A DNA stretch of 35,721 nt, taken from the NCBI GenBank assembly GCA_945828295.1, contig CALZQV010000006.1:1-35721 (forward strand), in the 5' to 3' direction. Under the pieces are notes generated by a model. That model worked only from the letters and a program-made list of their open reading frames with translations. It searched no databases and was not told the origin of the DNA. Source of the DNA: an uncultured Prevotellaceae bacterium. GTDB taxonomy: Bacteria > Bacteroidota > Bacteroidia > Bacteroidales > Bacteroidaceae. A program made the translations under genes and the position numbers. Of the stretch, positions 30,193 to 34,832 are shown piece after piece (within the stretch, counting starts at the first letter, position 1; every line of letters begins with the position of its first letter).

Positions 30193-30214
30193 AAAACACA
30201 CGCAACAACGTGTG
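30193..30214 (-). terminator. terminator of the surface-protein/peptide operon
   Basis: CACACG and CGTGTG pair across a 6-nt loop and are followed on the minus strand by TTTTAAG and shortly by a seven-T run. It lies about 42 nt beyond the small peptide's stop. Confidence 0.6.
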
Positions 30215-30255
30215 CGCTGTCGCCAGCCCCAGGCGGGGCCGGCATATCTCAATCA

Positions 30256-30444
30256 TTACTCTTCGCTGGCATCCTCATTGTCCCAGATGTCCCAGCCCTT
30301 GTTCTCGTGTACCTCGAAATCTCCAGGCGCAACGCCGTCAGCTGACTTGTCTACACTTACACCAGGGTTGCTGGTTGTAAGGAGAGTATTATTCAGTTCT
30401 GTCTTAATCACTACCGTTTGAGGCTGTATATATGTCATTTTCAT
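30256..30444 (-). CDS. short WDIWD-type conserved peptide
   Basis: The 62-residue product starts MKMTYIQPQTVVIKT and ends GWDIWDNEDASEE. Short Prevotella and Bacteroides proteins with an MKKTYIQP-like start and a Trp-Asp-x-Trp end resemble it; I recall this family from general knowledge and know no assigned function. There is no signal peptide or Cys. It lies 18 nt after the large surface-protein gene on the same strand, so both are likely on one mRNA behind the structured leader. It could be a precursor peptide, a small structural protein or an antigenic tag; nothing decides between these. Confidence 0.7.
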   Translation of the reverse strand: MKMTYIQPQTVVIKTELNNTLLTTSNPGVSVDKSADGVAPGDFEVHENKGWDIWDNEDASEE

Positions 30445-30462
30445 GTCGTTATTCCTCCTTTC

Positions 30463-33400
30463 TTATTTTACTAAAATCTTTTTACCATTCACGATGTTTA
30501 CACCCTTGTGCATACGGCTCATGCGCTGGCCTGCGAGGTTGAAGATAGCTTCCACCTCCTCACGAGTGGCAGTGCGAGTTTCCGTGATGCCAGTGGTTTC
30601 ATCCTCAAACACAAGAGTGAAGTCTTTCACACCAGTACCAGTCGGGATGCTCGTCTCTTTGATATATGCCTTGCCGGCAGAGATATTACCTGAACCGTTG
30701 TTGACAACAAATTTGTTGCCCGACAGGCCATAGGCAGTACCAGCTTCAACGTATGTGGGAGCGAGGGTGCCTACAAGTTTGTTGTCGTTGGAATCGAACT
30801 CGGTTGTGCCGTCAGCAAAAGTAACTGTAACGTTGCTGGTGTTCACACCGTCAGCGTCCTTGTTGTAGAGGACGACGCCCTGACCACCCTTAATCTTATC
30901 CGCAATCTTTTTAAACGTAATAGCGCCCTCGCTGGTAATTTCGCTTACACGCCAAGCGGTATAGCCCGTTGTGTTCGTGAAGTCGATGGGGTTCACTGAG
31001 CAGTATGTAGCATATCCATACTTATTAAGAGTAACATTGGCTGAAGGTATATTATATGCCTTTATGGTGAAGTCCTTTACTTCCCACATACCATTTGCAT
31101 TCGTTCCACTGGGAGTATAGCGGAAAATGAAGTGTACTGTCTTCCCAGCATAGTCGCTAAGGTCGATATCGCCCGAATTAACAAAAGTCCAGTTGGTACC
31201 GCCGAACCAATTAGGAATTGTTAGTTCAACCGGAGTTTCAGAACCTTCTTGAACAAACAACTTACATACTGTTTTCTTATTGGAGGATATTTTGTTTCCT
31301 ACATGGCTAAAGTAAACAAACGGCTCGCAATAACCTGACAAGTCAAAGTCCTCAGTAACCATGTCATAGTTTGTATCTTCGACTCCATTGTTTGTTGTTT
31401 CACGGCCAGCAACGGCTCCATATTTGGCTTCATAATGCCACAAGTTACCTGCGTCTGTAGTCCAGCCAGCAGGCAGGCCTGTGCCCTCGGTTTCAATACG
31501 CTTATAAAGTTGAATAGCATCACCCACAGGGAATTCTGTGAGGCCGGCAGGAGCATTGACAGTCACAGGAATCACTACAGGGCTACCTGCGGTATAGAGG
31601 TTTTCTGCGTCGGCAGGGGCTGTGATGGTGATAGTTGTTGAACCAACGGCTACGGCAGTCACCTCTCCACTGGCGTTAACAGTGGCAACGGACGTATTGG
31701 CACTTTCGTAGGTTAGTGTTCCAGCATAGTCGGCAGATACGGCGGCACCAATAGCCTCGGCAGCATCGCCGTAAGTCATATCTACATCGTTTGCCGTAAC
31801 AGCAACAGGAGCCGACACGCTAACACTGCGTTTTACGCTCACCATTCCATAGTTCTCCGTATCCACGGGAGTAATGGTACAGGTTATCGTTGCTGTACCA
31901 CGACCAACTGCAGTGTATGCGCCAGTCGAGGCATTCGTAATCTCAATTACACTGCTATTACTTGAAGTCCATGTCTTTGTGCAATCATCGGCATCGGTAG
32001 AAGTCGCAGCAAATGTACCCGTAGCATCTTTAGCCAACGTGCCGGGATCAGTAATTGTCACATCTGTTGAGATTGGAGTCTTCAGCGGAGTGATGGTGAT
32101 GCCAGTAAACACTGCATATGTACCATCTCCCTGTATTGTGATGGTTGTGCTGGTCTTTGTTGTGGTCAAAGAATTCGTTCCGCTATTTGTTCCATCGGAA
32201 ATGATAACATTGTTGGTCTTTTTCGTCGTTCTGATGGTGAAGCCATGATTACTTTTAATCGTAGGAGATGTAACCTTGCCAGTTGTAACCTTAATTTGCC
32301 AGCCATCATTATTGTAATAACCGTTAACCTCTTTCCATGTATAAGAGTTCCCATCGGAGCCTACTATTTCACAATCCCGGTTTCCATACGAATCCCCAAG
32401 CATGGTTTGATTCCACGAACCAAACGTTATTCCCTCCCCAGTCGTCCTTAAATCAATAGCGCCGTCAGAGACGGTAACTACGCAAGCAGCAGACTTAGTA
32501 TTATCTGCATTCGATTTAGCGGTGATGGTGGCCGTACCGAGGGCAATCGCTGTTACCACACCTGCGGAAGAGACAGTGGCCACGCCTGTGTTATCCGATT
32601 CCCAGTTCACGGTCTTATCTGTAGCATTTGTAGGAGATACGGTTGCGGTCAGTGTCAGATACTTCCCTACCATTAATAAGGCAGTGGCCCTATTTAATGA
32701 AACACTGGATACAGCTGTGGGTTTAACCGTGACGGCGCAGGTTGCGGTCTTTGTGTCATCTGCCACGGACTTCACGGTGATGGTGGCCGAGCCAACGCCA
32801 ACGGCCGTTACAACGCCATCAACTACAGTAGCTACGTCCTCGTCACTCGACTCCCATGTCACAGCCTTGTTTGTGGCATCAGCAGGAGAGATGGTTGCGG
32901 TCAGAGTCTCGGCGTCGCCTGCCTCCATCGTTACAGAGGTCTTATCGAGCGTAACGTCAGTAACGGCAATGGGAGCCGTTACGGTTACGGTGCATTCAGC
33001 CTTAATGCTGCCATTAGAAGGCGACTTGGCACGGATAGTTGTGGAACCAACTGCTACGCCAGTTACAACGCCATTGCTCACCGTGGCAATATCCGTATTA
33101 TCAGACTCCCACATAACGGTTTCACTCGTGTTTGCTGGGGCAACAGTCGGAGTCAGAGTCACATTACCACCAACAGCGACACTTGCCGTTGCGTCCATCG
33201 TGATTGACGTAATGGCAACGACTGCTCTCTTCTTGTATATATAAGGTTTGCTTTGTCCTGACGTATACTGAGAGAATAATTTACTCGTACCATTAAATGC
33301 TAAATAATATGAAGTGTTTTTCACATTTTGAACAGTAAAGACACTGTTGGCAGCAGACAAGGTCCACGCAGAAGTAGTGGTGGGTGCAGTAGACGCCGCT

Positions 33401-33765
33401 GTCGTGTTCGTCTTAAGATTATTCTTTGAAGTGCTTGCAGAATAAATATATCCGCTGCCCGTGTGGAAGCCAAAATTACTGCCATTCTTCTTTACTACAA
33501 ACACCTGCACATTATCAGAAGAAGAATAGGTGTAGGTGTGGTCAGTAACTGTAATTGATACCGGTGTGCGGTTGTTTGTGTTTTGTGTTGTTCCACAAGC
33601 ATGGGTCTCAGCCTGATTAACAAAGATGACTTCGTCACCATCGGCCAAACTGGTCGCATCTGAAATGCGTTCAAAGACGTCTCCGTTACTTACAGCCCAC
33701 GAGGTTGTGGAGCCTGCTACGAGGGAGAATAGCAGGAGCATTGTTTTAAGTAAAAGTTTTTTCAT
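30463..33765 (-). CDS. large secreted multi-Ig (BIG_2-like) surface protein with T9SS-like tail
   Basis: The 1,100-residue protein has an N-terminal signal peptide (MKKLLLKTMLLLFSLVAGST, cleavage near SWA). After a roughly 150-residue N-terminal region there are at least three BIG_2-like Ig domains, about residues 183-263, 267-347 and 352-432, each with a WESDN/WESSD core and VVTxVxVGxATI. Two more divergent ones appear later, near YTAVGRGTATI and VTAVAVGSTTI. A jelly-roll-like segment follows (PAGWTTDAGNLWHYE...). The end, IFNLAGQRMSRMHKGVNIVNGKKILVK in outline, resembles Prevotella type IX sorting tails, so it is probably exported to the cell surface. A structured leader precedes it and a short peptide gene follows. 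The ligand is unknown. Confidence 0.88.
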   Translation of the reverse strand: MKKLLLKTMLLLFSLVAGSTTSWAVSNGDVFERISDATSLADGDEVIFVNQAETHACGTTQNTNNRTPVSITVTDHTYTYSSSDNVQVFVVKKNGSNFGFHTGSGYIYSASTSKNNLKTNTTAASTAPTTTSAWTLSAANSVFTVQNVKNTSYYLAFNGTSKLFSQYTSGQSKPYIYKKRAVVAITSITMDATASVAVGGNVTLTPTVAPANTSETVMWESDNTDIATVSNGVVTGVAVGSTTIRAKSPSNGSIKAECTVTVTAPIAVTDVTLDKTSVTMEAGDAETLTATISPADATNKAVTWESSDEDVATVVDGVVTAVGVGSATITVKSVADDTKTATCAVTVKPTAVSSVSLNRATALLMVGKYLTLTATVSPTNATDKTVNWESDNTGVATVSSAGVVTAIALGTATITAKSNADNTKSAACVVTVSDGAIDLRTTGEGITFGSWNQTMLGDSYGNRDCEIVGSDGNSYTWKEVNGYYNNDGWQIKVTTGKVTSPTIKSNHGFTIRTTKKTNNVIISDGTNSGTNSLTTTKTSTTITIQGDGTYAVFTGITITPLKTPISTDVTITDPGTLAKDATGTFAATSTDADDCTKTWTSSNSSVIEITNASTGAYTAVGRGTATITCTITPVDTENYGMVSVKRSVSVSAPVAVTANDVDMTYGDAAEAIGAAVSADYAGTLTYESANTSVATVNASGEVTAVAVGSTTITITAPADAENLYTAGSPVVIPVTVNAPAGLTEFPVGDAIQLYKRIETEGTGLPAGWTTDAGNLWHYEAKYGAVAGRETTNNGVEDTNYDMVTEDFDLSGYCEPFVYFSHVGNKISSNKKTVCKLFVQEGSETPVELTIPNWFGGTNWTFVNSGDIDLSDYAGKTVHFIFRYTPSGTNANGMWEVKDFTIKAYNIPSANVTLNKYGYATYCSVNPIDFTNTTGYTAWRVSEITSEGAITFKKIADKIKGGQGVVLYNKDADGVNTSNVTVTFADGTTEFDSNDNKLVGTLAPTYVEAGTAYGLSGNKFVVNNGSGNISAGKAYIKETSIPTGTGVKDFTLVFEDETTGITETRTATREEVEAIFNLAGQRMSRMHKGVNIVNGKKILVK

Positions 33766-33819
33766 ATTAAAATATTTTAATGATGAGTTAAAAGTTCAAT
33801 AAGGTTGGCGTAGGGGCAC

Positions 33820-33892
33820 AAAAAAAGCGCAGGTCTTCACCATACGCTACTCGGGTCTAGGCCAACCCCCATCCACTATGGGAGACCTGCGC
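33820..33892 (-). terminator. intrinsic terminator inside the surface-protein leader
   Basis: On the minus strand GCGCAGGTCT (33892-33883) pairs perfectly with AGACCTGCGC (33836-33827), and the second arm is followed directly by TTTTTTT. The 46-nt loop holds a smaller CCCAT/ATGGG hairpin. It ends 54 nt before the surface-protein start codon, so it could attenuate that operon. Confidence 0.75.
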
Positions 33893-33994
33893 ATACGCGC
33901 ATGTCCCATATGTGGGTGGTATTGTTCTTTCACTTTTCGAGGGCCTAGTTCGAGTAGCGACATGAACAACAAAAAGGTATTTCCGCCGAAATAC
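33820..33994 (-). ncRNA. structured leader or small RNA upstream of the surface-protein gene
   Basis: A promoter (33999-34030) and terminator define a minus-strand RNA of about 175 nt. It opens with a GTATTTC/GAAATAC hairpin (33994-33977). CGCTACTCG (33959-33951) then pairs with CGAGTAGCG (33853-33845), and CTAGGCC (33948-33942) with GGCCTAG (33863-33857), forming a long stem with a small internal loop. That stem encloses the first terminator arm, so stem and terminator interleave: they are either alternatives or a pseudoknot. I recognise no known class (not tmRNA, RNase P, SRP or 6S by its motifs). No second promoter precedes the surface-protein gene, so an attenuator is favoured over a stand-alone RNA. 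Confidence 0.65.
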
Positions 33995-34132: not shown

Positions 34133-34326
34133 TTAATTGAGGGCCTCTTTGGCCAAGATTGAGATTTTGTCGAGAAAAGCCTCCGTCGGCTCGATATAAG
34201 GGAGGACATCTGCCTCAGTGAGACCAAAGCGATCGCTATAGTCTCCTTTCAATCGCATCGTCAGCAAGTGGTTCAATAAATTCTATATGAGACAATGTCC
34301 TTCCTATTTTCGTCCTGAAGACTCAT
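34133..34326 (-). pseudogene. HEPN-domain gene with internal deletion
   Basis: The ATG at 34326 overlaps the MNT stop (ATGA) and reads MSLQDENRKDIVSYRIY before a stop at 34273. In another frame from about 34270 to 34133, HLLTMRLKGDYSDRFGLTEADV and PYIEPTEAFLDKI match the C-terminal end of HEPN proteins, with its GDY motif. The middle, roughly 75-80 residues by comparison with family length and including the R-x4-6-H catalytic motif, is absent. This is an internal deletion with a frame change, so the toxin or partner function should be lost. The length of the missing part is an estimate from memory of the family. Confidence 0.8.
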
Positions 34327-34646
34327 AGCCTGATTCCTTCCCTCGTAACGTTTTCGTAGAATGGACTTGCCATATCATGCTTCCACTCTTCCTTGGTATA
34401 TAGTATGGTATTTATTGTTTCCCCAAATTCCCAACCGAGCTCTCTCATTGGATATGTCAAGTCATCAATGTCGGCAGGCATAACCTGTTTTTTGTCTACG
34501 AGCATCAGTATGTCCCAATCCGAGTCCTTGCGGGCATCGCCTCGCGCCTGCGACCCAAAGAGTATAATTTCGGTCCCCTTGGGTGCAATGGATTTTGCCT
34601 TGTCGGCAATTGCTTTAATTATGTTCTTACGTCTCAGTTCGGTCAT
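34323..34646 (-). CDS. MNT-type nucleotidyltransferase
   Basis: The 107-residue minimal nucleotidyltransferase has the diagnostic loop ILFGSQARGDARKDSDWDILML: Gly31-Ser32 and the paired metal-binding Asp43 and Asp45. In MNT-HEPN toxin-antitoxin pairs this protein modifies or neutralises its HEPN partner. Here the partner gene overlaps it but is broken, so MNT is left alone. The C-terminal part (YTKEEWKHDMASPFYENV) matches the usual MNT end. The ATG at 34646 lies 25 nt after a recognisable promoter box. Confidence 0.9.
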   Translation of the reverse strand: MTELRRKNIIKAIADKAKSIAPKGTEIILFGSQARGDARKDSDWDILMLVDKKQVMPADIDDLTYPMRELGWEFGETINTILYTKEEWKHDMASPFYENVTREGIRL

Positions 34647-34723: not shown

Positions 34724-34832
34724 TTAAGTTAGGGCGGAGGTTAAGTTAACTTAGGACGGAGGTTAAGTTAACTTGAGGCGCGAGGTTAAGTTAAGTGGGA
34801 GGCGGGGGTTAAGTTAACCTGCGCCGCGGGGG
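34724..34832. repeat. 22-24-bp tandem repeat array 3 (about 5 units)
   Basis: Units start at 34724, 34741, 34763, 34786 and 34809, each with TTAAGTTA(A) followed by a G-rich block such as CGGAGG or GGCGGGGG. Spacings are 17, 22, 23 and 23 bp. The TTAAGTTAACTTA part is nearly palindromic. The array separates the rsmF-like stop from the MNT promoter. Its sequence is unrelated to arrays 1 and 2, but the period is the same. Confidence 0.8.

Follow-up and report, generated by a model that had tools for sequence, protein, structure and literature searches.

Organization of the Locus

The window, i.e., the whole 35,721-nucleotide stretch of DNA analyzed here, belongs to an uncultured Prevotellaceae bacterium (contig CALZQV010000006.1) whose genome is incomplete at 1.93 Mb. 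For a conserved neighbour gene, the nearest named relatives come from metagenome-assembled genomes of rumen Bacteroidaceae and Paraprevotella (84% and 79%). The minus strand carries, from 5′ to 3′, a structured leader RNA, a large surface-protein gene, referred to here as the cargo gene, and a short peptide gene, with the following features:

33820–33973, minus strand: conserved structured leader RNA of ~155 nt in the operon's 5′ untranslated region (folding, covariation, copies)
30463–33765, minus strand: cargo gene, encoding a 1100-aa protein with a signal sequence, Big_2 Ig repeats, a C-terminal module and a T9SS-like tail
30571–31050, minus strand: ~160-aa all-β module of the cargo, about residues 906–1065 (tracked by the peptide; AlphaFold2)
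30466–30567, minus strand: T9SS-type-A-like tail of the cargo, ...IFNLAGQRMSRMHKGVNIVNGKKILVK, with a KxxxK end
30445–30462, minus strand: 18-nt intergenic gap between the cargo gene and the peptide gene
30256–30444, minus strand: gene for a 62-aa peptide, the putative YxxP/WDIW partner (ORF call, homologues, dN/dS)
30421–30432, minus strand: YIQP, the YxxP motif of the peptide, residues 5–8 (148/150 family members)
30271–30294, minus strand: WDIWDNED, an acidic, Trp-containing C-terminal motif of the peptide, residues 51–58 (family pattern)
30202–30223, minus strand: weak terminator-like hairpin 3′ of the peptide gene (sequence)

The first-pass annotation had called the short gene as an open reading frame of 62 residues lying 18 nt after a multi-Ig gene. 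Both statements hold: the frame is on the minus strand and translates as MKMTYIQPQTVVIKTELNNTLLTTSNPGVSVDKSADGVAPGDFEVHENKGWDIWDNEDASEE, and the stop codon of the cargo gene lies 18 nt upstream, with no promoter-like site found around the gap. The same annotation took GWDIWDNED for the end of the peptide; the motif is indeed located there, but the true terminus is ...GWDIWDNEDASEE, and NED is not terminal.

A Large Family of Small Acidic Peptides

The frame is more than a chance occurrence because homologues exist in other species (45% identity, about equal length, E = 1e-8), many copies are present per genome, and dN is lower than dS in 66 of 67 usable close pairs, with a median ratio of 0.19 (the pairs are not independent). 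Homology and dN/dS rule out a stray ORF, and the family is, judging from its substitution pattern, under purifying selection.

The distribution is narrow. A single-sequence search of 61 genomes recovered homologues in most genomes of the same genus and almost none outside it, and a direct contig search with the single peptide as the query gave no match. A family profile (A1) built from 55 members had matches in 156 of the 251 genomes sampled from the taxonomic family, with copy numbers reaching at least 26 per genome, versus only two of 297 genomes in an even phylum-wide sample. The earlier view that such peptides recur in the phylum was thus too wide; on this sequence evidence, the family is one of gut and rumen relatives of Prevotella. 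No convincing Pfam or NCBIfam model match was obtained for any of the 55 members, the NCBIfam RiPP models gave no match (best of 55 members, E = 0.05), and literature searches found no description of the peptide. The family is large, unnamed, and previously undescribed.

Family members share two conserved ends separated by a variable linker. Of 150 members, 148 have the YxxP motif, the two exceptions reflecting the start codons chosen by our script, and a Trp falls within the last 15 residues in 144 of 150. The median member has 57 residues, a pI of 4.3, and no hydrophobic stretch; the mean net charge is +0.9 over the first 25 residues and −4.4 over the last 20. No signal peptide or membrane segment was found in the peptide. 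AlphaFold2 predicts a largely disordered chain, with pLDDT ~85 for residues 1–20, ~60 elsewhere, and a pTM of 0.21. A search for fusions between peptide and cargo found none, the sole long frame being a read-through upstream of the start codon.

Two variants of the arrangement were seen along the way. At one locus (L041:4240–4600), a tandem pair of YxxP peptide genes lies behind a single cargo gene. Short YxxP peptides with a similar N-terminus also occur at three loci (L094, L096, and L097) of genome G062, from another family of the same class, where a tail-bearing gene upstream is absent; these are possibly a distant branch with another role.

The Cargo Protein Ends in a β-Module and a T9SS-Like Tail

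The 1100-aa cargo has an N-terminal Sec signal sequence (MKKLLLKTMLLLFSLVAGSTTSWA, identified by eye and hydropathy) and Big_2 repeats (E = 1.7e-46). Its ~160-residue module, located directly before the tail, follows the pattern GYAT...GVxAY...PAGxPVLLKG...GFY...AGKAYL...GVKxF. AlphaFold2, given the last 206 residues of the cargo and 72 relatives, predicts an essentially all-β structure with a pLDDT of 90.8 and a pTM of 0.77, and a Foldseek search of the module against the PDB returned no significant fold match (best E = 0.18). This module is common to many surface proteins with unrelated bodies, which include Big_2, LRR_5 (BspA-type LRR), sulfatase, cleaved adhesin, fn3, and others.

The last ~30 residues, the tail proper, read G-x-RV...KG-I-Y-I-V-N-G-KK-VLVK and have a KxxxK end. 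Searching a tail profile against the PDB placed gingipain C-terminal domain chains among the ten best matches, all weak (E between 0.13 and 1). The curated type A sorting models TIGR04183 and PF18962 gave no match in the window's cargo protein and detected just one of 38 tails (E = 0.023 and 0.071, respectively). Because the gingipain matches are weak and the curated models scarcely detect the tail, we label it T9SS-type-A-like rather than a proven member of that class. SprA, the T9SS translocon, is encoded in the same genome (2665 bits).

The Peptide Is Paired with the Module

Within the taxonomic family, about 95% of peptides are encoded directly behind a gene ending in a T9SS-like tail. A tail-bearing ORF precedes 96 of 106 distinct peptides (those found by sequence with at least 300 nt upstream), at gaps of −4 to 239 nt, against a background of 13 tails in 456 ORFs of at least 250 aa at the same loci. 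Three of the ten exceptions come from a single distant genome, and the upstream proteins at L199 and L201 are tail-like by eye. The neighbour tally proposed in the first-pass annotation therefore comes out in favour of shared neighbours, and its suggestion that the peptide has a role tied to the surface protein is borne out more strongly than was guessed.

Since the tail profile was derived from peptide-linked proteins, the pairing was re-tested without the peptide as the starting point. Tails by themselves do not call for the peptide: the window's genome has 42 of them, only two with a peptide. The module is found in 102 of 107 peptide-linked tail proteins versus ten of 60 unlinked ones, using a module profile grown from the window's cargo by homology rather than by peptide presence, from a sequence pool that included linked proteins. 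Among loci drawn by tail, 13 had both module and peptide, three the module only, none the peptide only, and 39 neither (p = 4e-10). When loci were instead drawn by module (four genomes from four genera), a peptide followed 39 of 60 full modules, and 32 of the 37 scoring at least 109 bits; the 21 modules without a detectable peptide were mostly low-scoring. For one of these peptide calls (L286), the loose pattern had matched a wrong frame; a peptide at that locus is nevertheless supported by the family profile. The same order of module gene and then peptide gene is found, for instance, in CACZCZ010000005.1 of the rumen MAG RUG12512. An association with the Ig repeats is ruled out by the variety of cargo bodies, and one with T9SS-like tails in general by the absence of the peptide from all 39 module-less tail proteins; the partner is the combination of module and tail. 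The link between cargo and peptide is thereby sharpened to, and at the level of sequence confirmed for, a C-terminal module class.

The peptide also co-occurs with SprA: 149 genomes have both, seven the peptide only (some of these incomplete or scored on part of the candidates), 46 SprA only, and 49 neither (p = 3e-18), a correlation to which shared ancestry contributes. In within-genome permutations, peptide similarity tracks module similarity (rho 0.40, p = 0.026). The relationship persists within genomes when only cargos whose bodies are unrelated are compared (rho 0.38, p = 0.024), where that between peptide and tail is lost (rho 0.03, p = 0.33), so that peptide–tail coevolution is weak at best. 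Such similarity is compatible with module, tail, and peptide forming a 3′ cassette placed on different bodies, with or without contact between its products, and may reflect joint descent of that cassette rather than contact.

A Structured Leader RNA Precedes the Cargo Gene

The first-pass annotation described the operon as switchable, and inverted repeats lie upstream of the cargo gene (33803–33959). As a claim of DNA inversion, the description is not borne out: the repeats are helices of a leader RNA that cross one another, carry compensatory changes, and keep the same direction as the genes, and an invertible promoter was rejected on these grounds. The region folds far better than shuffled sequences (z −5.3), and a DNA search of 139 genomes of the same genus found many copies, several per genome in some. 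An alignment of 17 copies supports four helices and a pseudoknot, with 92% of pair cells standard (32–40% paired in slid alignment controls) and changes on both sides in 24 of 37 pairs (shuffled mean 15.4; none of 500 as high). A covariance model recovered one to eight copies in each of 13 genomes tried, from four genera; the sole match in G436 is weak (E = 0.06). Most copies lie 55–100 nt ahead of the start codon of a gene encoding a lipoprotein or a protein with a signal peptide, and in the cases examined the RNA is on the 5′ side of the gene and shares its orientation.

No match to Rfam 15 was obtained at the gathering threshold, and no relevant weak match. Possibly, the RNA is one of the 3161 human-microbiome RNA candidates listed in PMC8040213. 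Strong copies head the peptide operons of the window, L034, L074, L077, L083, L086, and L092, among those examined, and L201 has a weak one; as only some peptide operons have it, the RNA does not belong to the peptide system in general. Its covariation speaks against DNA inversion and in favour of control of the cargo–peptide operon at the RNA level, and switching at that level is possible. A near-invariant GACCUGCGC-U-run is found at its 3′ end, which could pair with the P4 strand in a terminator-like manner.

What the Peptide May Do

The one-gene-behind pairing, its dependence on the module and not the cargo body, the selection on the peptide, and the co-occurrence with SprA are observations made directly on genome sequences. 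They make it very probable that the peptide is a dedicated partner of module-bearing cargo. Because it is encoded right behind module-bearing surface proteins, it is probably a dedicated helper in making or exporting them, and we lean, with less assurance, towards an action on cargo biogenesis or export. A cargo-dedicated partner working as an adaptor or chaperone is our best explanation, offered tentatively as a whole; the specific role of a cytoplasmic adaptor or chaperone of the module is put forward more guardedly still.

In mechanistic terms, the peptide would be made from the same mRNA as the surface protein with module and T9SS-like tail, and its product would stay in the cytoplasm as a small adaptor or chaperone. 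The YxxP end, presumably strand-like, would grip freshly synthesized module, and the acidic Trp-rich end would attach to a general factor; the cargo would thus arrive in an export-competent state, first at the Sec machinery and next at the T9SS. At the sequence level, the two conserved ends and the variable linker between them resemble the design of an adaptor, and the peptide has the traits of secretion chaperones, being small, acidic, adjacent to the cargo gene, and one-to-one with it. Against an adaptor stands its predicted disorder (pTM 0.21), whereas chaperones in other systems are folded. The module, moreover, is predicted to fold confidently alone, so that there would be no missing strand to supply. 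Strand mimicry of the module, suggested by a shared T-[YF]-x-x-P look, was rejected when a profile comparison showed no resemblance. We know of no Sec cargo with dedicated cytoplasmic chaperones of such size.

The main rival reading is that of a RiPP-like precursor, because YxxP is also the RRE-binding motif of lasso and LPP leaders. An RRE-domain protein from another locus would recognize the YxxP leader, and the matured portion would be exported to act with the cargo at the surface. RREs bind the YxxP leaders of lasso peptides, and LPP precursors of Bacillota share a YxxP...S N-terminal motif with similar spacing (PMC13381572). Like these precursors, the peptide is small, with YxxP in its N-terminal part and a variable middle, and a hydrophobic-x(1–3)-Ser/Thr stretch follows the motif by ~10–20 residues in 148 of 148 members, by a loose pattern. 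In contrast to them, no linked maturase was seen: maturation, export, or RRE genes are not apparent among the window's ORFs, and the copies are scattered, one per cargo. Its acidic Trp end is conserved rather than hypervariable, and the NCBIfam RiPP models do not match it. On balance, we regard a precursor as unlikely.

A regulatory peptide is a less promising idea. It would signal that cargo is being made or that its export is blocked; module that has not been exported might, for instance, capture the peptide, which in its free form would bind a regulator. In agreement with this, each cargo is paired with a peptide on its own message, the product is acidic and lacks an export signal, its conserved ends could serve for partner binding, and the cargo mRNA also bears a regulatory-looking leader RNA. 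Some genomes, however, have more than 20 paralogues, each tied to its own module, and no regulator gene is linked, which leaves this role improbable.

We give about the same low credence to shared ancestry alone, i.e., to a 3′ cassette of module, tail, and small ORF copied behind different bodies without functional contact between peptide and module. Near-identical paralogous cassettes exist (L066/L069 and L049/L054), and the correlation of peptide with module similarity is what copying would leave behind. The peptide is nevertheless kept in diverged cassettes across genera, and it is absent from module-less tail genes (0/39). Finally, the ORF could act solely by way of translation or message stability at the 3′ terminus of the cargo mRNA, the peptide being functionless. 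This would suit a short frame that is nearly always behind the cargo gene and often overlaps or lies near its stop codon, but it is very hard to reconcile with purifying selection on the amino acids and with a YxxP that stays invariant, and ends that stay conserved, even among highly diverged members.

Comparison with Known Secretion Systems

The cargo-dedicated partner that we favour has two instructive counterparts. In type III secretion, chaperones are small acidic proteins encoded beside the exported protein that they serve; they are larger than this peptide and form folded dimers. The peptide resembles them in being small, acidic, and adjacent to its cargo gene, and differs in being mostly disordered by prediction and in serving a cargo with an N-terminal signal sequence.

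In the T9SS, the type B cargo SprB of Flavobacterium johnsoniae has a PorP/SprF-like shuttle, SprF, encoded adjacent to it (PMC12618676). Here as there, the cargo class is set by a C-terminal region, the gene of the cognate partner often adjoins, several pairs exist per genome, and some cargos are orphans. In contrast to the SprF-like proteins, which are outer-membrane shuttles, the peptide has ~57 residues and no signal peptide or membrane segment, and its cargo's tail resembles type A rather than type B. The peptide itself was rejected as a PorP/SprF-like shuttle on account of this size, the lack of a hydrophobic segment, and the lack of a Pfam or NCBIfam match. With type A cargo (TIGR04183/PF18962), the window's protein shares a genome encoding SprA, and its tail may resemble gingipain C-terminal domains, to judge from the weak profile matches; it departs from that class in that the curated models barely detect the tail, which is preceded by a ~160-aa module with no significant fold match in the PDB.

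Bacteria of this group expose very many proteins on their surface in the gut and rumen, and the pairing would bear on how different classes of T9SS cargo are handled. The C-terminal module marks a new cargo class, and the peptide family, with at least 26 copies in some genomes and an almost one-to-one relation to that class, offers a directly testable cargo–partner pair. It also helps to annotate hundreds of small ORFs now listed as ‘hypothetical’. Independently of the peptide, the leader RNA may represent a new class of cis-regulatory RNA controlling envelope genes. A broader proposal, which we hold to be doubtful in its full extent, is an undescribed export-linked system of Prevotella-like bacteria. 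In it, β-module surface proteins would mostly have their own YxxP peptide on the same message, acting either as an export-licensing adaptor or as an in-trans-matured YxxP-leader precursor that ends with the cargo at the surface, and some operons would begin with a pseudoknotted leader RNA of a new class.

Other Features of the Window

Upstream of the operon, the minus strand encodes an MNT-type nucleotidyltransferase (34323–34646; NTP_transf_2, E = 6e-10), followed by a short 47-aa ORF (34133–34276), possibly what is left of a HEPN partner; together, they may be a degraded MNT-HEPN toxin–antitoxin pair. Positions 34724–34818 hold a tandem array of about four 22–23 bp units (GGCGGAGGTTAAGTTAACTTGA) with TTAAGTTAACTT inside.
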